Positions 3,830 to 24,172 of a DNA stretch of 24,698 nt are shown in pieces. Under the pieces are notes generated by a model. That model ran no database searches, was not told where the DNA came from, and worked only from the letters and a program-made list of their open reading frames with translations. This DNA comes from a virus: the IMG/VR virus record IMGVR_UViG_3300030099_000627, positions 1 through 24,698 of that record; one strand, written 5' to 3'. The position numbers and the translations under genes are program-made. Numbering within the stretch: position 1 is the first letter of the stretch; every line of letters starts with the position of its first letter.

Positions 3830-4119
3830 TAAAGTCTCCTTATAATATCAGCCATATCTTTATGACCTTGTTTTTGTAATAATCCTGCTACAGTAGCTCT
3901 ATCACTAGCTATAGCTTGTTTTAAATATAATAAAACAACTTGTGTCATACTATCTTTAAATGCTTGTGCTTGTGCTTTAACCATTGGGTCTGCACTATCA
4001 CTAATAGAAATTAATTTATCTATTATTCTTTCAGTCCAATATTCTGGACTTAAACCTTTATTGTTTGTTGTTTTAACTTCTATATCACCTATGGTTGTTT
4101 GAACATCTACACTAAACAT
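3829..4119 (-). CDS. Conserved small phage protein, unknown function
   Basis: 96 residues, mostly alpha-helical by composition: a short beta start (MFSVDVQTTIGDIEVKTTNNKG), then 'PEYWTERIIDKLISISDSADPMVKAQAQAFKDSMTQVVLLYLKQAI' and a C-terminal 'AGLLQKQGHKDMADIIRRL'. It overlaps both neighbours by a single base, placing it in a tight unit with the adaptor-like gene before it and the virion protein after it. I recognise the shape from marine phage structural clusters but no function; an assembly or connector accessory role is inference. Confidence 0.65.
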   Translation of the reverse strand: MFSVDVQTTIGDIEVKTTNNKGLSPEYWTERIIDKLISISDSADPMVKAQAQAFKDSMTQVVLLYLKQAIASDRATVAGLLQKQGHKDMADIIRRL

Positions 4120-4760
4120 TATGTTCTCTCTACTCTTACAACATCATCTCTATAAGTATCCACAGTGTTATATCCTTCACCTAAAACTTTTAATCTTGAC
4201 ATAGACTCTAAATATCTTTTTTCATATTGATTCATTAAATCCATATCTCCTTTCATATACATATATCCTTCTATTAAAGAACCATATAGTAACGCATTTC
4301 TTGCATTAGTTGATAACCATGTTGTACCACTATCAGAACCTGCTGTTATAGAATCTGGTCTATAAAAATAATGTAATTCTGCTGTAAAATTTGCATTAGG
4401 TGTAGGTCCAACTATAAAAGTAGTATCATCAAATAAAGCATAATGTTTTGGTATTCCTGTAGTTGATGCGTTTGGATAAGCTTCTCTAATAAAGTTTACA
4501 TCTTTAAATAATAAAAAAGATTGTTCATCTGAATTAGTTATAGACAAAGAAAAATTATCTAAAAAGTCTGTTGGTGTAGCTAAATATTTATTACCTGAAG
4601 TTATAGTTCCTTCTACATTTTTTCTAAAATTAGGAAGTCTTACAGTTTTTAATATTCTTTCTTCTGCTTGTTTTATAACATTGTCTATATTAGAAACAAA
4701 ACTTGTTTCTGTATTTTGTAAATAATCTTGTATTAAACTTTTTAACTCTGACAATGTCAT
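4119..4760 (-). CDS. Putative head-tail adaptor protein (SU10 adaptor-like)
   Basis: 213 residues. The N-terminus (TLSELKSLIQDYLQNTETSFVSNI, then IDNVIKQAEERILKTVRLP) is the helical signature of phage adaptor proteins that attach below the portal ring in podoviruses such as SU10. The middle is beta-rich (LATPTDFLDNFSLSIT, HYALFDDTTFIVGP, ELHYFYRPDSI) and the C-terminus helical (WLSTNARNALLYGSLIEGYMYMKGD...YEKRYLESMSRLK). This alpha-beta-alpha layout and length fit an adaptor or tail-tubular A-type connector. One-base overlap with the next gene. Alternative: another neck protein of the same superfamily. Confidence 0.7.
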   Translation of the reverse strand: MTLSELKSLIQDYLQNTETSFVSNIDNVIKQAEERILKTVRLPNFRKNVEGTITSGNKYLATPTDFLDNFSLSITNSDEQSFLLFKDVNFIREAYPNASTTGIPKHYALFDDTTFIVGPTPNANFTAELHYFYRPDSITAGSDSGTTWLSTNARNALLYGSLIEGYMYMKGDMDLMNQYEKRYLESMSRLKVLGEGYNTVDTYRDDVVRVERT

Positions 4761-17363: not shown

Positions 17364-17618
17364 TCATATCTTCACGGGTTCGTCAATAGTTTTTTCAACT
17401 TTTTTAAACGGACTGTTTCTAGTGCTCATCACTGTACGCCATCTGTTAGGTTGCATAGTAACCCAGCCACCATCTTTAAGTCTATGTATCATAGCGTGTA
17501 TTGTGCTCTTAGAAGACAATCCTAAAGCATCAGCTAAAGCATCAAGACTAGGACCGCAGCCAAACTCTTCCCAGTATTCTTCTATGGTTTCTAAAAGTTT
17601 TAGTTGTTTACTTGTCAT
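17364..17618 (-). CDS. LexA-type winged-helix DNA-binding protein
   Basis: 84 residues. The pattern 'LKLLETIEEYWEEFGCGPSLDA' then 'LADALGLSSKSTIHAMIHRLKDGGWVTM' closely follows the N-terminal winged helix of LexA: a first helix, G-x-x-P-S, a recognition helix in 'LSSKSTIHAMIHRL', and a wing start 'GWVTMQPNRWRT'. No LexA autoprotease domain (Ser/Lys catalytic pair) follows; the protein stops shortly after the wing, so it cannot self-cleave. A likely transcriptional regulator placed between terS and terL. Its own promoter overlaps a LexA-type box (17650-17664), so it may bind its own site or be controlled by host LexA. Confidence 0.8.
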   Translation of the reverse strand: MTSKQLKLLETIEEYWEEFGCGPSLDALADALGLSSKSTIHAMIHRLKDGGWVTMQPNRWRTVMSTRNSPFKKVEKTIDEPVKI

Positions 17619-17889: not shown

Positions 17890-18354
17890 CTAGGCTTTGT
17901 TGAACATAGACTGTATTTTTTGTTCCAGTTCCAGTCTAATCTCATCAGATGACTTGCTGCTGCTGGTTGTTTCTAATCTCTCTGTAAACAATGCGACTTC
18001 AGATACTTTGCCTAGTAGTTCCAATGCCCTGATTCTTGATGCTTCGTTATTATCTGTATTCAATGCTTCCTTCTGTAGCTGCTCCAGTACCATCTGTCTT
18101 AGAGATAGCCCTGTAGTAGCTGCATACTCATTCTTCCGCTTCATACCTAGCTTTACCCTTTGGGAGACCTTGGGGCTGCTCATTAGCTTTGATGCTTCTG
18201 TCCATACGCTGCTATCCTTCATGTTCTTGGTACTATATGCGTTGCGATATGATTCACTTGCTGTCATACCTGATACAACACCCTGAACGAACTTCTCTTG
18301 CTTTGGAGTAAGCCCTGATATATTGGCTACATTGTCCTTGTCTTTACTGCTCAT
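17890..18354 (-). CDS. terS: Terminase small subunit
   Basis: 154 residues. 'LTPKQEKFVQGVVSGMTASE' (15 on), then 'SYRNAYSTKNMKDSSVWTEA' and 'SKLMSSPKVSQRVKLG', is the Terminase_2 pattern: an N-terminal helix-turn-helix that binds the packaging site, followed by a helical oligomerisation part with coiled-coil propensity ('LRQMVLEQLQKEALNTDNNE'). Forms a ring that recruits TerL to phage DNA. First gene of the minus block; ATG 18354-18352 follows one copy of the 24-nt element, and AAGGGAT is the only SD-like sequence, at suboptimal distance. Unlike its neighbours it is more GC-rich. Confidence 0.9.
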   Translation of the reverse strand: MSSKDKDNVANISGLTPKQEKFVQGVVSGMTASESYRNAYSTKNMKDSSVWTEASKLMSSPKVSQRVKLGMKRKNEYAATTGLSLRQMVLEQLQKEALNTDNNEASRIRALELLGKVSEVALFTERLETTSSSKSSDEIRLELEQKIQSMFNKA

Positions 18355-18358
18355 ATCT

Positions 18359-18382
18359 ATCTATTAATCCCTTAATATTTAA
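18359..18382 (+). repeat. 24-nt recurrent element, copy 1
   Basis: ATCTATTAA-TCCCT-TAATATTTAA. Contains the palindromic core TATTAA-N4-TTAATA (18362-18377). Lies in the terS leader, so on the minus strand it is a near-start hairpin with AAGGGAT inside. Confidence 0.7.
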
Positions 18383-18428
18383 AATTATTTTATATCTCTA
18401 TGTTAGTAATCACTATCACTGCAGACCT

Positions 18429-18458
18429 ATTATACGCTTACTTCGTAAGCAACAACAA
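18429..18458 (-). promoter_or_regulatory. Promoter for terS
   Basis: On the minus strand -35 TTGTTG (18458-18453), 18-nt spacer, -10 TATAAT (18434-18429), about 75 nt before the terS ATG. The spacer holds a perfect palindrome GCTTAC-N3-GTAAGC (18436-18450), an operator candidate that would block RNA polymerase. The GTAAGC half-site recurs beside GTAAG/CTTAC at 17842-17853. Confidence 0.6.
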
Positions 18459-18483
18459 ATATGTTCACGAACATTTGTAGAAA
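18456..18483. promoter_or_regulatory. GTTC/GAAC operator between divergent promoters
   Basis: ATGTTC-AC-GAACAT (18461-18474) inside a longer imperfect palindrome from ACAAA to TTTGT. On the plus strand GAAC-ATTTGTA-GAAA (18469-18483) is one base from the GAAC-N7-GAAC form. The same GAACAT half-site occurs twice at the winged-helix promoter, so one regulator may act at both. It lies just upstream of both -35 boxes. Confidence 0.45.
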
Positions 18484-18500
18484 ATAAATACATTTTTTTA

Positions 18501-18529
18501 TTGACACGATACACCACATAAACTAATAT
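18501..18529 (+). promoter_or_regulatory. Strong plus-strand promoter
   Basis: TTGACA (18501-18506, perfect consensus), 17-nt spacer, TAATAT (18524-18529, 4 of 6). Predicted start near 18536. It drives the structured RNA and probably, by read-through, the right-arm genes. No other good plus-strand sigma70 promoter was seen further right. Confidence 0.75.
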
Positions 18530-19012
18530 TCGTTTTGTTGCGGGATTGATGAGACCCAAAAAAGCGAAGAAACAGTAGCTAACTCCCCTTTCCAAGACAC
18601 CCATAGCGAGACATCTAGTTTCCTTGAAGTTGGGCTTTGCAATAAAGACTAACGATTTGGGTTGCCTAGAGCAGCACAAGGTATCAAGGGGGCAAACAGA
18701 ACGGGGTAAACTGGGAATCCCTATCGCGAAAAATCCGCTTTTCAAAAGTTTGTGCGTTTACCCAGTGTCCTGACAGTGTTGCTATTGATGGTTCAATACC
18801 TGTCTTGCGGAGAGTGTGGCGGCTTCTCCCTTGATGGAGTTTTTAAAACTGGCTTTAGTCCCCACAGAACATGGAACAGGGCATAGCAGCGAAAGTGCTA
18901 ATTCTGATGGTGTAGCAAAGTCTATCTCTAGGGGCTAATAGGAGTTGTGTGTAGTCAGAAAATCCCATGCTGTTGTGAGTTTTTGCTTATGTATTAACGA
19001 TTTAATACTTGA

Positions 19013-19068
19013 TTATGTCCTTGAATTAACAAGCTGAATGAGTATCCGCAAGGGTACAAGAAACATAG
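19013..19068 (+). ncRNA. Hammerhead-like ribozyme, type III layout, variant core
   Basis: Stem III TTATGT (19013-19018) with ACATAG (19063-19068, one wobble); cleavage base C19019; stem I CTTG/CAAG (19020-19023, 19030-19033) with loop AATTAA; core CUGA-A-UGA (19034-19041), one A more than the canonical CUGAUGA; stem II GTATCC-GCAA-GGGTAC (19042-19057, GNRA loop); then AA and GAAA. Order and pairings fit a type III hammerhead, but the core has an inserted A and stem II is followed by two extra A. Predicted cut: GUC^C at 19019/19020, at the 3' end of the large RNA. Confidence 0.6.
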
Positions 19069-19072
19069 AAGT

Positions 19073-19105
19073 TGGCAGACCTTCGGAGAAAACTGCCACA
19101 TTTTT
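19073..19105 (+). terminator. Terminator-like hairpin before the first plus gene
   Basis: TGGCAG (19073-19078) pairs with CTGCCA (19093-19098); the loop contains a C-UUCG-G tetraloop sequence (19080-19085). CA then five T follow. Six pairs plus a short U tract suggest a leaky Rho-independent terminator that may let part of the transcription pass into the downstream genes. Directly follows the hammerhead-like motif. Confidence 0.55.
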
Positions 19106-19122
19106 AATAACTAGGAGAAAAT

Positions 19123-19389
19123 ATGAATAAAATAACTAAAGTAAATGATTGGGTAATTAATTATCGTGGTTTTTATTTCAGTGTGCATAAAAGCTATACA
19201 TTCAATGGGAATGTAAGAAGCATTGAGTATCATGGTCTTAATGCTGGTATGAAAAGAATGTACTGGAATAGAGAAGATTTAAAAGATGGTGTTGATAGAA
19301 CAATTGATAAAGCTATGAAACTTTATATTGAACATTATGGAATGAAAACTAAAGATAGTCCTATCTTAGAAAGTTTTTTAACGGCTTAA
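19123..19389 (+). CDS. Small phage protein, unknown function
   Basis: 88 residues: 'WVINYRGFYFSVHKSYTFNG' and 'RSIEYHGLNAGMKRMYWNRE' suggest a small aromatic beta-rich domain, then 'DGVDRTIDKAMKLYIEHYGM' a C-terminal helix. RBS AGGAGA is about 6 nt before ATG. First gene after the large RNA. Its stop codon (19387-19389) abuts the type I hammerhead, so ribozyme cutting would leave this mRNA with a 3' end about 56 nt after the stop. No family recognised. Confidence 0.65.
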   Translation: MNKITKVNDWVINYRGFYFSVHKSYTFNGNVRSIEYHGLNAGMKRMYWNREDLKDGVDRTIDKAMKLYIEHYGMKTKDSPILESFLTA

Positions 19390-19450
19390 ACCTACTGATG
19401 AGCAACACTGAAAGGTGGCGAAAAAGCGGACACTTGTTCGCTTTATAGGT
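19390..19450 (+). ncRNA. Type I hammerhead ribozyme
   Basis: All core elements present. Stem I ACCTA/TAGGT (19390-19394, 19446-19450); core CUGAUGA (19395-19401); stem II with GC/GC, AA bulge and CACU/GGUG capped by GAAA (19402-19419); GAA (19420-19422); stem III of nine pairs, AAAGCGGAC with GTTCGCTTT (19423-19431, 19436-19444), loop ACTT; cleavage base A19445. A15.1-U16.1 and G10.1-C11.1 pairs are as required. Predicted cut after A19445 (UUA triplet, allowed by the NUH rule). Fills the gap between a stop codon and the next RBS (AGGAG at 19461-19465). Activity not tested. Confidence 0.9.
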
Positions 19451-19929: not shown

Positions 19930-19960
19930 TTGTACCTGAATGAGATACCACGAAACAGCA
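19908..19960 (+). ncRNA. Hammerhead-like ribozyme, type III layout with pseudoknot
   Basis: Stem III TGCTGT (19908-19913) with ACAGCA (19955-19960), six perfect pairs; cleavage base C19914 in a GUC context; stem I GTACAAC/GTTGTAC (19915-19921, 19929-19935), seven perfect pairs, loop ATTGGTA; core CUGA-A-UGA (19936-19943), with the same extra A as the motif at 19013; loop II ATACCA between a single G-C pair (19944, 19951); then GAA. TGGTA of loop I (19924-19928) is perfectly complementary to TACCA of loop II (19946-19950), the loop-loop pseudoknot known from natural hammerheads. Predicted cut after C19914, about 90 nt before the AAA+ gene. Core insertion and minimal stem II leave activity open. 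Confidence 0.7.
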
Positions 19961-20004
19961 TTTCATTTTGTAATATTAATTTGTTTCATGGAGTAAGTAA
20001 TTGT

Positions 20005-21006
20005 ATGAAAGCATTACAATTAGAAAAATCTTTGAACACTTTGATTTCTCTAAACCAGCCTTCCTTTGTTTGGGGTGGTGTTGGTATTGGTAAATCAGAA
20101 ATTGTTCATAAAGTTGCTTCATCACTTGGATACACTGTTAGAGATGTCAGAGTTGCTTTGCTTGACCCTGTCGATTTAAGGGGTGTGCCTAGTGTTGAAG
20201 ATGGAATCACTGTATGGAATCCGCCTGTATTTTTACCTACTGAAGATGATGGGAAAATATTATTGTTTCTTGATGAGTTGCCGCAAGGTAGCCCATCTGT
20301 ACAAAATGCCCTATTTCAGTTGATTAAGGATAGACAGCTTGGCGAATACACTTTACCAAAAGACACTGTCATAGTGGCTGCTGGTAATAGAGTTCAAGAC
20401 AAGGCTGGAGCAAATAGAGTAAACACTGCATTAGGAGATAGGTTTATTCACTTGAATCTTGACCCTTGTTCTGATGAGTGGATTGAGTGGGGTGCTAAAA
20501 GCGGAAGGATAAGACAAGAAGTATTATCTTTTATTGGCTATCAAGGAGATGAGTATTTATATCACTTTGATAAAAACAGTCCTGTTAATGCTACCCCTAG
20601 AGCATGGGAGTACGCATCTAAGATATTGGATACTGACCCTGATAAAGAGATAGAGCAAGAACTTTATGCTGGTACTATTGGCGAAGGTATTGCTGCTGAA
20701 TTTACTTCTTTTGTTAGAAGATATAGACAGCTACCTAGTATTGATAAACTTTTAGATAATCCTGAAAGTATATTTGATGATGTCGAATATCAGTCAGACA
20801 CTATCTATCTGATTATTGGTGTTCTAGCTAAGAACATGACCAAAGATAATATTCAAAAGTTCTATGAATTTATGAAGAATACATCTGATATTCAAGATGA
20901 GTTTTTAGTATTGGCTATGACTATGGCTACTGCTAGAGATGAAGGCTTGAAGAAAACAAAAACATATATCGACTATGAAGTTGAATATCAAGATATTGGG
21001 GCTTAA
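20005..21006 (+). CDS. MoxR-like AAA+ ATPase
   Basis: 333 residues from ATG 20005, which has GGAG (19990-19993) 11 nt upstream; the longer frame from a TTG at 19930 would run through the ribozyme and is rejected. Walker A GGVGIGKS (24-31), Walker B 'ILLFLDEL' with Asp90-Glu91, sensor 1 'VIVAAGN' with Asn128, then 'NTALGDRFIHLNLDP' as usual after the second region. This is the MoxR branch of AAA+, proteins that work with VWA-domain partners in assembly or insertion of metal centres. Followed by a DUF3150-like and a VWA gene, the standard MoxR neighbourhood. Substrate unknown. Confidence 0.85.
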   Translation: MKALQLEKSLNTLISLNQPSFVWGGVGIGKSEIVHKVASSLGYTVRDVRVALLDPVDLRGVPSVEDGITVWNPPVFLPTEDDGKILLFLDELPQGSPSVQNALFQLIKDRQLGEYTLPKDTVIVAAGNRVQDKAGANRVNTALGDRFIHLNLDPCSDEWIEWGAKSGRIRQEVLSFIGYQGDEYLYHFDKNSPVNATPRAWEYASKILDTDPDKEIEQELYAGTIGEGIAAEFTSFVRRYRQLPSIDKLLDNPESIFDDVEYQSDTIYLIIGVLAKNMTKDNIQKFYEFMKNTSDIQDEFLVLAMTMATARDEGLKKTKTYIDYEVEYQDIGA

Positions 21007-21015
21007 CAGCCCCTT

Positions 21016-21039
21016 ATCTATTAACCAATTAATATTTAA
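21016..21039 (+). repeat. 24-nt recurrent element, copy 2
   Basis: ATCTATTAA-CCAAT-TAATATTTAA, immediately followed by the GGAG of the DUF3150-like gene. Palindromic core TATTAA-N4-TTAATA at 21019-21034. Confidence 0.7.
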
Positions 21040-21047
21040 GGAGAACT

Positions 21048-21929
21048 ATGGCTTTATTACAAGACAAAGCATTACTGATTGAAGTTAATCTTAAAAAGTG
21101 GAGTGGAGTTAAAACTGACAAAACTTTGAGAAATGAACTTGCTGAAAATCATGGTGTGCATGAGACAAGGCTTACTGTAAACAAGAAATTGACTGACAGT
21201 GAATCTTTGAAAACTATCAAGAAGATTGATGGCTTGATAAGAACTGATTGTATTTACAGTGGGGCTGGATACAGTGGCTTTTGTTTAGCATGGGATAATC
21301 AAGGAACTTATCTATTACCTATTGAATTAAAAGATAGGTTTGAGAAAAGAGTTCAGTCTTATCAACATGATAGAGAAAAAGCTGTTAAACAATTTATCAA
21401 GGAATATGATTCTATGATTGCTAAAGCTAAAAGAGATTTAGGCACAGCATTTAATCCTGAAGATTTTCCTAGTAAAGATGAGATGGAAGGTTTATTTGAA
21501 TTTGATATTATCAAAAAGCCTATCCCATCTAATGATGATATTAGAATCAATTTACCAGCAGATGAGATTGCTGAATTAAAAGCTAATGCAAAAGCATCTG
21601 AAGATGCAAAGATACAGCAAATCACTGGGGCTGTCGTTGATAAAGTAAAGGGTGTGCTTACACACTTTGCAGATAAGGTTGATGCTGGAGAAACATTTAG
21701 AGACAAGACTGTTGATAAACTTGTTGAACTTTGTAATGTTTTACCAGCATTGAATGTTAGCGGAGATTCGCAGATAACAGCAGCCCATCAAAAGTGTATG
21801 GATTCTTTTCATGGCAAAGGCATTACTGCTGACAAAGTTAGAGATGATGAAGATTTAGCTGAAGAATTATCTAGTGCGGCTAAAGAAATTGTTTCTGATT
21901 TAGATACTAAAGGGGGTTATTTTGACTAA
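21048..21929 (+). CDS. DUF3150-like protein of the MoxR/VWA module
   Basis: 293 residues. N-terminal 'LLIEVNLKKWSGVKTDKTLR' and 'ETRLTVNKKLTDSESLKTIK', 'CIYSGAGYSGFCLAWDNQGT' and 'YLLPIELKDRFEKRVQSYQH', then a helical C-terminal half ('VVDKVKGVLTHFADKVDAGE' and 'FRDKTVDKLVELCNVLPALN'). Placement between a MoxR-type ATPase and a VWA metallopeptidase-like gene matches DUF3150 proteins on plasmids and phages. Likely an adaptor or substrate-binding part of the complex. RBS AAGGAGAAC is clear. The stop overlaps the next start by 8 nt. Confidence 0.65.
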   Translation: MALLQDKALLIEVNLKKWSGVKTDKTLRNELAENHGVHETRLTVNKKLTDSESLKTIKKIDGLIRTDCIYSGAGYSGFCLAWDNQGTYLLPIELKDRFEKRVQSYQHDREKAVKQFIKEYDSMIAKAKRDLGTAFNPEDFPSKDEMEGLFEFDIIKKPIPSNDDIRINLPADEIAELKANAKASEDAKIQQITGAVVDKVKGVLTHFADKVDAGETFRDKTVDKLVELCNVLPALNVSGDSQITAAHQKCMDSFHGKGITADKVRDDEDLAEELSSAAKEIVSDLDTKGGYFD

Positions 21930-23124
21930 CGATATTGATAAAAAAGCTGCAAACAAGATGACTAAAGCTAGAGTATATTTGCTGAAGAATAAACCCTTCT
22001 TTGGCAAACTTGCTATGGATTTAGATTTTGTTGAGAGCAGTCAGTTTGATACTATGGCTGTTGATGGACAAAGGATATTCTATAATCCTGACTTCACTAA
22101 CAAGATAACATTTCTTGAAACAGTTGGAGTGATAGCCCACGAAGTTCTTCATGTGGTGTTCAAACATCATTTGCGTAGGAACGACAGAGACCCCTTCTAT
22201 TGGAATGTAGCTGGAGACTATGTCATTAATGATGTTCTTGTAGAAGAAGGCTTTGAGTTGCCTGAGAATCCCTTGCATGACCCTAAATATCACAAGACTA
22301 CAACAGAGAAAGTCTATGCTGAAGTTTACAAGGGAGATGATTCTAATGATTCTAATACTGATTCTGATTCTGATTCTGATGGTTCTGATGGCGAAAGCAC
22401 AAAAGATTCTTTAGCAAAAAGAATGTTTGGCGAAGTAATAGATGCTGTCTCTGAAGAAGATGGACAGCCTTTATCAAAAGAAGAAGTTGAGAAGTTAGAG
22501 CAAGAGATTAACGACAAAGTTATTGATGCTAAAACTGTTTCAAAAGATTGTGGTAAAGGTGGAGATGCTTTTAAATCTATGATGGATATTGTTAAGCAGC
22601 AGTCAGTATCATGGGAAGAAGTGTTGGGTAATCTTGTATTAGAAAAGACTACTACTAATGATTATAACTTCAACAATGCTAATAGAAGATTCATATATCA
22701 GAATATGTATCTACCTAGTGTTGAGAAAAAACCTAGTCCCAAGGGGGCAGTTGCTCTTGATATTAGTGGGAGTGTATCAAAAGAAGATATGGCTATGATG
22801 CAAGATGCAATCAACAATATCATTCCTGTAGCTAACTTTGAAGAACTTACTATTCTTTATTGTGATGATGCTGTCAGACAAGTTGATACCTATTCTAGTG
22901 GAGAAGAGGTTGAGTTAGATTATATATGTGGCGGTGGCACAGACTATGAGCCAGTGTTCAAGTATGTAAACAAACAGCTTGATGATGATATTGCTTTCCT
23001 TGTATATCTTACTGATGGGTATTGTTATCCCCCATCAAGCGGAGAGCCTGACTATCCTGTTATTTGGGCTACTACTGGGACATCAAGATACTTCAAGTTT
23101 GGAGAAGTGGTTGATGTTGAGTAG
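21922..23124 (+). CDS. Metallopeptidase-like plus VWA-domain protein
   Basis: 400 residues. The start is TTG (21922-21924) with AGGGGG upstream; the next ATG (21958) would lose 12 residues. N-terminal domain: 'AHEVLHVVFKHHLRRN' with HEVLH at 73-77, the HExxH zinc-site motif, followed by 'WNVAGDYVIND' (94-104), as in DUF2201-type proteins. A very acidic Asp/Ser linker (139-158) separates a VWA-like domain with MIDAS start DISGS (280-284) and 'CGGGTDYEPVF'. Family knowledge: MoxR ATPase plus this protein form a chaperone or assembly pair. Whether the peptidase is active is unknown. Last gene of the module, overlapping the previous one. Confidence 0.8.
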   Translation: MTNDIDKKAANKMTKARVYLLKNKPFFGKLAMDLDFVESSQFDTMAVDGQRIFYNPDFTNKITFLETVGVIAHEVLHVVFKHHLRRNDRDPFYWNVAGDYVINDVLVEEGFELPENPLHDPKYHKTTTEKVYAEVYKGDDSNDSNTDSDSDSDGSDGESTKDSLAKRMFGEVIDAVSEEDGQPLSKEEVEKLEQEINDKVIDAKTVSKDCGKGGDAFKSMMDIVKQQSVSWEEVLGNLVLEKTTTNDYNFNNANRRFIYQNMYLPSVEKKPSPKGAVALDISGSVSKEDMAMMQDAINNIIPVANFEELTILYCDDAVRQVDTYSSGEEVELDYICGGGTDYEPVFKYVNKQLDDDIAFLVYLTDGYCYPPSSGEPDYPVIWATTGTSRYFKFGEVVDVE

Positions 23125-23369: not shown

Positions 23370-23459
23370 ATGACAAAACTAGAAATAATTAGCTACTCAA
23401 TACTTGCAATAGTACTAATAGCAACACTTTATTTTAACGAAAAGGAGTTAAGAAAATAA
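23370..23459 (+). CDS. 29-residue membrane peptide
   Basis: ATG 23370 with GGAGTAAGT upstream gives MTKLEIISYSILAIVLIATL and YFNEKELRK, a single membrane segment (about 5-20) with a charged tail. The stop overlaps the next ATG by one base (TAATG), and AAAGGAG inside its end is the RBS of the next gene. Unknown function; probably co-translated with it. Confidence 0.6.
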   Translation: MTKLEIISYSILAIVLIATLYFNEKELRK

Positions 23460-24172
23460 TGGATTTAAACAAAGAAGAACTAAAACAAGTGGCTGATAAG
23501 TTTGCTATGGAGAGAGAACAAGAGCAGTTGGAATATCCTGTTGAAGATTATTCTAAAGACAAAGTTGTTCTCTATCATGGAACTAACACAGTTAATCTAA
23601 AGAAGATACTCAAAGATGGGCTATGCCCTAGAGGAAACAACGAGGGTAATTGGACACACACTATAAGCAGTAGAAATGACATGGTGTATCTTACAAACTC
23701 TTATGCAGTTCATTTCGCTATGTGTTCAATGAGTGAAGATGATATGCACGGCATGGTAGTTGACCCAGTTGTATTAGAAATAGAAGTTGATACAAAGAAT
23801 CTTTATCCTGATGAAGATTTTATGGAACAAGCAACAAGAACTAACAGTATGTGGCAAGGATATTTTGATGATATTGGTTGTGAAGATATGACAGCTAGAA
23901 CTAAACACTTTAGAGATAACATATCTGAATACAAAGAATATTATAACGATAGCTTAAAACATTTAGGTAATGCTTGTTATCTTGGAGAGATTAAACCTGA
24001 AAGCATCAAAAGATATTCTGTCTTAAATACTGATGTTGTTTGGGATTATTCAGACCCAACAATAACTTTAATGAACTACAAAATTTTAGGTAGCAGATAT
24101 AGAAAGCTATCCAAAAAATTAATGTGGGAAGAACCTTTATCTATTAACGAAGTAATATTTAATAAAGAGTAA
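23459..24172 (+). CDS. Putative ADP-ribosyltransferase-like protein
   Basis: 237 residues. Motifs in order: 'VVLYHGTNTVNLKKILKDGL' (36-55) with H40-G-T, 'MVYLTNSYAVHFA' (75-87) with Y77, and 'ACYLGEIKPESI' (172-183) with E177. An H-G-T start, a Y-L-T-x-x-x-x-A-x-x-F strand and a G-E-I-x-P-E-x-I end are the layout of ADP-ribosyltransferase-fold proteins (H-Y-E group and Tpt1-like relatives). If active, it could modify host proteins with NAD+. Fold identification is by pattern; substrate unknown. Element copy 4 lies inside its last codons. Confidence 0.55.
   Translation: MDLNKEELKQVADKFAMEREQEQLEYPVEDYSKDKVVLYHGTNTVNLKKILKDGLCPRGNNEGNWTHTISSRNDMVYLTNSYAVHFAMCSMSEDDMHGMVVDPVVLEIEVDTKNLYPDEDFMEQATRTNSMWQGYFDDIGCEDMTARTKHFRDNISEYKEYYNDSLKHLGNACYLGEIKPESIKRYSVLNTDVVWDYSDPTITLMNYKILGSRYRKLSKKLMWEEPLSINEVIFNKE
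24139..24162 (+). repeat. 24-nt recurrent element, copy 4
   Basis: ATCTATTAA-CGAAG-TAATATTTAA, within the end of the ADP-ribosyltransferase-like gene, 12 nt before the next ATG. The palindromic core has one mismatch (GTAATA instead of TTAATA). Confidence 0.65.

Follow-up and report, generated by a model that had tools for sequence, protein, structure and literature searches.

A conserved structured RNA between TerS and the first early gene of a phage, predicted to end in a hammerhead-type element

The stretch of DNA analyzed here (the window) is a 24.7-kb virus record, which was assigned to a phage by matches to TerL, the portal and the major head protein. The structural genes (tail fibre, major head protein, portal, TerL and TerS) run leftward, and the early genes run rightward from position 19123. 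The TerS gene (17890-18354, minus strand), identified by matches and synteny, is the divergent neighbour that defines the conserved locus. The first early gene, p88 (19123-19389, plus strand), has no family match, and its Shine-Dalgarno (SD) sequence AGGAG was read from the sequence at 19113-19117 (plus strand). The divergent gap between TerS and p88 (18355-19122) houses the RNA that is the subject of this study. We looked for tRNA genes in the window and found none. Since the isolate terminases nearest to the window TerL (about 56% identical) are those of a seawater phage and Pelagibacter phage HTVC027P, the phage is likely marine.

From 19123, the rightward genes encode small proteins, a MoxR-like AAA ATPase, a DUF3150-like protein (its match is just below the cut-off) and a DUF2201 metallopeptidase/VWA protein. 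The last three (19930-23124, plus strand) resemble MoxR-VWA systems. Another early-operon protein, of 237 aa (23459-24172, plus strand), matched the PARP catalytic domain with an E value of 2.4e-6, just above the Pfam cut-off, and is possibly a phage ADP-ribosyltransferase. On the minus strand, an 84-aa protein with a LexA DNA-binding domain match (17364-17618) is kept between TerS and TerL in relatives. This protein is a candidate regulator of the divergent promoter.

The gap had been described beforehand as lacking a good open reading frame, as raised in G+C and as headed by a consensus-like promoter, and all three descriptions were borne out. No plus-strand ORF of at least 50 aa was present between TerS and p88, and a long frame open throughout 16 relatives was looked for and was absent. 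An antisense TTG ORF at 18416-18745 was rejected as a coding sequence, because its frame is missing in the A3 and A4 groups. The G+C content is 0.44-0.48 across most of the RNA, whereas the flanks are at about 0.28-0.31. A sigma-70-like promoter, TTGACA-17-TAATAT, lies at 18501-18529 (plus strand). Most clade A relatives keep it at this position. In the gaps of clades A and B, the best promoter-like scores averaged 9.31, as compared with 8.52 in shuffled gaps (8.85 in the best of 100 shuffles). The start of the RNA, 18536, is inferred from this promoter.

Scanning IMG/VR for TerL yielded 80 loci. Those extending past TerS have a noncoding gap of about 600-770 nt ahead of the next rightward gene, and they split into clade A, which is window-like, and clade B. 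When clade B, clade C and the other loci were searched with a covariance model built on the core of clade A, none matched. Some strings common to the clades (GGGGCNAA...GTGTGTAG) may be due to chance and were set aside. The TerS of clade C matched no isolate. Clades A, B and C have position and plan in common; homology of the RNA bodies is not claimed. In three other loci (L092, L101 and L102), the gap upstream of TerS contains a conserved stretch of about 230-325 nt (72-85% identical), apparently unrelated to these RNAs. This stretch is a candidate fourth RNA family.

The minimum free energy of the RNA showed no excess over shuffles on either strand (z = +1.8). Therefore, structure was sought by comparison and covariation. 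In clade A, a de novo helix search found eight helices with at least three compensatory pairs each, whereas column shuffles averaged 0.05 such helices and never gave more than 1. The same search found three helices in clade B (null, 0.15) and one in clade C (null, 0.1), where it supports structure weakly. A six-helix model was scored in 16 clade A sequences. Pairing was kept in 95.6% of the pair cells against 74.1% in shuffles (0 of 500 shuffles reached this value), and 25 of the 33 pairs were altered on both sides. The covariation score was 0.676, as compared with 0.261 in shuffles and at most 0.18 when the partners were slid. As this model was drawn from the alignment that it scores, the shuffle of the de novo search is the fairer control.

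All elements of the model are on the plus strand. Hairpin P1 (18630-18653) has compensatory changes in three of three counted pairs. Hairpin P2 (18656-18680; nine pairs, six changed on both sides) carries the conserved loop CUAGA. A long-range pairing, PK1, is proposed between CUAGAG of the P2 loop (18666-18671) and CUCUAG at 18926-18931; in the A4 group, both strands are changed and pairing is still possible with the register shifted by one position. P3 (18703-18706 with 18719-18722) and P4 (18710-18715 with 18761-18766) form an H-type pseudoknot at 18703-18766, in which 100% of the cells are paired and eight of ten pairs are changed on both sides. Within the pseudoknot loop is hairpin P5 (18738-18748; all four pairs changed on both sides). 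P6 pairs 18902-18908 with 18954-18960 (seven pairs, four changed on both sides). The covariation across homologues (eight helices against 0.05) bore out the main point of the preliminary description, a structured phage RNA that is noncoding and, by our estimate, about 0.5 kb long. This conserved RNA is encoded at approximately 18536-19019, in the gap that separates TerS from the first early gene.

These results bear on the explanation that the gap works as DNA, with TerS or a regulator binding it at a packaging site or at operators and with the helices being incidental. The place of the gap next to TerS and a folding energy no better than that of shuffles speak for it. However, the many compensatory changes, far over the nulls, the strand-specific promoter and hammerheads, and the absence of a conserved ORF are all against it, and we consider this explanation extremely unlikely.

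The RNA had been described as having a ribozyme-like motif near its end. This motif is real: 19013-19068 (plus strand) has the layout of a type III hammerhead with a variant core, and is here named HHR-alpha, with a predicted cut between 19019 and 19020 (GUC^C). It folds in the hammerhead topology. The GUC site is followed by a stem I hairpin (loop AAUUAA), the core, stem II, GAAA and the closing strand of stem III. All core bases are present in the window copy, as CUGA(A)UGA and (AA)GAAA. The three stems around the core and the NUH-type site (GUC) were found, and stems I, II and III covary. In IMG/VR, at least 87 distinct copies have GUC, a paired stem I, CUGA-N-GA and GAAA. Among the 87 copies listed, the stem I loop is fixed as GAAUUAAC, two extra adenines lie between stem II and G12 in every copy, and 33 have an extra base after A6, including the A inserted in the window copy.

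Covariation of the stems was analyzed in 37 diverse copies, and none of 500 shuffles matched either the paired cells or the covariation score. Stem I is paired in all 37 by CG, GC, AU or UA pairs. In stem III, the first pair past the invariant ones alternates between A-U and U-A with zero exceptions. A covariance model of HHR-alpha gave 62.7 bits (E = 1.4e-13) for 19013-19068, where the window copy is itself one of the 37 training sequences; it also recovered an independent copy in locus L095 at 60.5 bits. Of the whole records tested, most of those carrying the element have one copy each. Tandem pairs, about 300-350 nt apart, occur in L211 and L278. The HHR-alpha pattern gave 16 matches in bacterial and archaeal genomes, which are without GUC and a full stem I. 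These matches were rejected as chance and serve as a control. HHR-alpha was not found in the isolate phage records tried.

No Rfam hammerhead matched 19013-19068 even at E ≤ 10, and RF00163 was silent in the window record. By its architecture HHR-alpha is hammerhead-derived, but its core insertions and the lack of an Rfam match keep us from classing it among the standard hammerheads. Its likeness to known hammerheads (RF00163, RF00008; HHphage) consists of the three-stem layout, the CUGA-N-GA and GAAA core and the GUC site. In contrast to them, it has AA before G12 and the fixed GAAUUAAC loop, scores under the Rfam cut-offs, terminates a structured leader by TerS and is flanked by SD and anti-SD sequences. 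Low activity was reported for one natural hammerhead that carries an insertion after A6 (PMC3088659), and self-cleavage by HHR-alpha is therefore putative. We found no earlier report of HHR-alpha in a literature search that reached few subscription journals.

The predicted cut would set the 3′ end of the RNA. The span originally given was 18536-19105, about 570 nt. Its start is kept, and the 3′ end is probably 19019 rather than 19105, so that the leader would be approximately 484 nt (18536-19019, plus strand). The terminator-like hairpin placed at the end of that span, a hairpin with a short T run at 19073-19098 (plus strand), occurs in the window only and is absent in the aligned relatives. 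A terminator scan found none, and a conserved terminator was therefore rejected.

HHR-alpha copies mostly end a noncoding gap of 250-490 nt divergent from TerS, just before the SD. Among the matches listed, the opposite-strand upstream ORF is TerS-like in 63 of the 72 copies having such an ORF; of the remaining nine, four are spurious and run antisense to the RNA itself in window-like phages, where TerS is further off. An SD core lies within 30 nt 3′ of the element in 82 of the 87 copies listed, and 66 of the 87 have an anti-SD, CUCC, no more than 12 nt 5′ of the cut site. This CUCC is missing upstream of the cut in the window group. The strings CCUCCA and UUGGAGG can lengthen stem III, and each can alternatively form its own hairpin. 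To judge from these positions, the hammerhead may gate the ribosome site of the first gene in most relatives.

A second element, at 19390-19450 (plus strand), sits between p88 and p60. It is a type I hammerhead with the canonical core CUGAUGA/GAAA, three stems and an NUH site (UUA), and the cut is predicted after 19445 (UUA^U). The descriptor stems have 5, 6 and 10 pairs, and the minimum-energy fold of the segment is exactly the hammerhead. It is kept in A1, A2 and A3 relatives with changed stems. When the 1.5 Mb of sequence searched were shuffled once by mononucleotide, the strict hammerhead descriptor gave no match. The segment did not reach the Rfam cut-off (RF00008, 13.6 bits against 48.5); a sub-threshold Rfam hammerhead match was obtained at 19382-19429, and all other relaxed-threshold matches were attributable to chance.

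In the A2 group (L018, L019, L020 and L072), the RNA 3′ end carries a 17-nt exact duplication of the hammerhead substrate strand (AATTGTCTTGATAAACA). The ribozyme has its own copy in the gap after the first gene, and the duplicate precedes this copy by about 410-430 nt. The presence of a duplicated substrate half of the ribozyme at the RNA 3′ end suggests that the same ribozyme could serve both boundaries in this group.

Other relatives have different elements. The A4 phages (L029, about 4110-4180, minus strand) have at the RNA 3′ end a different hammerhead-like hairpin set, CUGAAGA...GAAA, and a short part of this set also precedes a gene in a more distant phage (L143, about 1000-1045 of the gap). 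Three more distant relatives have canonical-core hammerheads about 600-700 nt upstream of TerS, all on the minus strand (L077, 662-713; L090, 3237-3290; L091, 4398-4455). In clade B (L044), the RNA ends in a hairpin set at 3926-4040 (minus strand) with no hammerhead, and this set recurs twice more in the early region (2969-2883 and 2732-2664, minus strand). This set could be a site of RNase III-type processing or an element of another kind. In phage T7, the early polycistronic mRNA is cut between genes by the host RNase III. The loci described here are similar to T7 in that an early mRNA would be cut between genes, and clade B has long conserved hairpins at the same places; in clades A and C, unlike T7, the cut is predicted to be catalyzed by RNA.

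We propose, with a probability of roughly 0.62, that the RNA is an early leader cut from its own mRNA by the hammerhead and that the released RNA acts in trans. The analysis shows conservation, covarying structure, promoter position, hammerhead architecture and synteny, and we infer transcription, cleavage, translation gating and trans action. Host RNA polymerase would start at the 18501-18529 promoter and transcribe first the RNA and then, still rightward, the early genes. HHR-alpha would cut the transcript after 19019. The products would be a free, folded leader of about 484 nt, its 3′ end defined by the cut, and an mRNA starting shortly before the ribosome site of the first gene. The second hammerhead would cut between the first and second genes. 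In most relatives outside the window group, the anti-SD 5′ of the cut can pair with the SD 3′ of the ribozyme and extend stem III. Before the cut the SD could be held against the leader; after it, leader and mRNA could refold apart, and the cut would help to free translation of the first early gene. The released RNA would most likely act in trans in host takeover or early expression.

We counted for this model the covarying helices, the conserved TerS gap in clades A and B, the TerS-like gene divergent from most copies in clade C, the HHR-alpha copies with their SD and anti-SD sequences and covarying stems, the hammerhead at 19390-19450 and the promoter. Counted against it were the core insertions, the rejection of HHR-alpha by the Rfam models, the window group without an anti-SD, the lack of detectable RNA-body homology among clades A, B and C, and the hairpins that replace the hammerhead in clade B.

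Some of these observations could also be explained by a leader that acts only in cis. Such an RNA would never be released and would serve, still attached, as a processive antiterminator, an mRNA stabilizer or a translation regulator, the hammerhead-like element being a non-cleaving structural remnant or a translation switch. The fixed place at the head of the early operon, the extra core adenines in every HHR-alpha copy listed and the SD and anti-SD positioned around the element agree with this explanation. However, the catalytic core bases and GUC are kept while the stems are changed, a pattern that would be difficult to account for if cleavage were not selected, and a canonical hammerhead lies one gene downstream. 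We regard a purely cis-acting leader as rather unlikely.

Cumulative GC skew reaches its lowest point near 18.5 kb. Together with a divergent gap that has a promoter and a structured transcript, this would fit a replication origin, with the RNA as a primer or its regulator, like ColE1 RNA II. The skew, however, switches where the coding direction does, which accounts for it just as well, and a ribozyme cut ahead of the first gene is unexpected in a primer. We regard an origin transcript as very unlikely.

The preliminary description had likened the RNA to GOLLD and ROOL. Its RNA, promoter and ribozyme-like motif stood, and this analogy, like a conserved terminator, found no support: the Rfam covariance models of GOLLD and ROOL were unmatched in the window and 14 relatives, where no Rfam family reached its gathering score and nothing credible appeared at E ≤ 10. 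The likeness is that of a large structured phage noncoding RNA with pseudoknots (PMC12286853). GOLLD and ROOL are frequently, though not obligatorily, near tRNA genes. Unlike them, the leader RNA has no Rfam match, is shorter (about 0.3-0.6 kb), has no tRNA genes near it, heads an early operon and has a hammerhead at its end. The hammerhead identity, the second hammerhead and the layout of TerS, RNA, ribozyme and early gene emerged only in the present analysis.

In haloviruses HF1 and HF2, 13 nt separate HHphage from the start of an early gene downstream of it (Perreault et al. 2011, PMC3088659), and HHR-alpha resembles it in its position just ahead of a phage early gene. The noncoding transcript of ICP1, of about 800 nt, is also a long ORF-less phage RNA of obscure role (PMC7567579). 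It adjoins the lysis cluster rather than preceding early genes, and the passages considered here do not mention a ribozyme for it.

Large phage RNAs and phage hammerheads are each known and poorly explained. Here they are joined, with a ribozyme bounding a structured leader at a fixed place, divergent from TerS and ahead of the first early gene. Dozens of distinct viral contigs have this arrangement, and the start site of the first gene can often pair into the ribozyme fold. The AA core insertion, present in all 87 copies listed, poses a question of ribozyme chemistry: either it is tolerated or the activity is conditional. It is conceivable, though distinctly unlikely on the sequence evidence, that the leader allosterically controls its terminal hammerhead in nature, sensing a host or infection signal and switching self-cleavage on. 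If so, cleavage would release the leader and uncover the ribosome site of the first early gene, and a broad phage group would possess an RNA-only early switch. Under the self-cut leader model, phage hammerheads would gain a concrete, testable job, and a large phage RNA family would gain a predicted start, end and timing.
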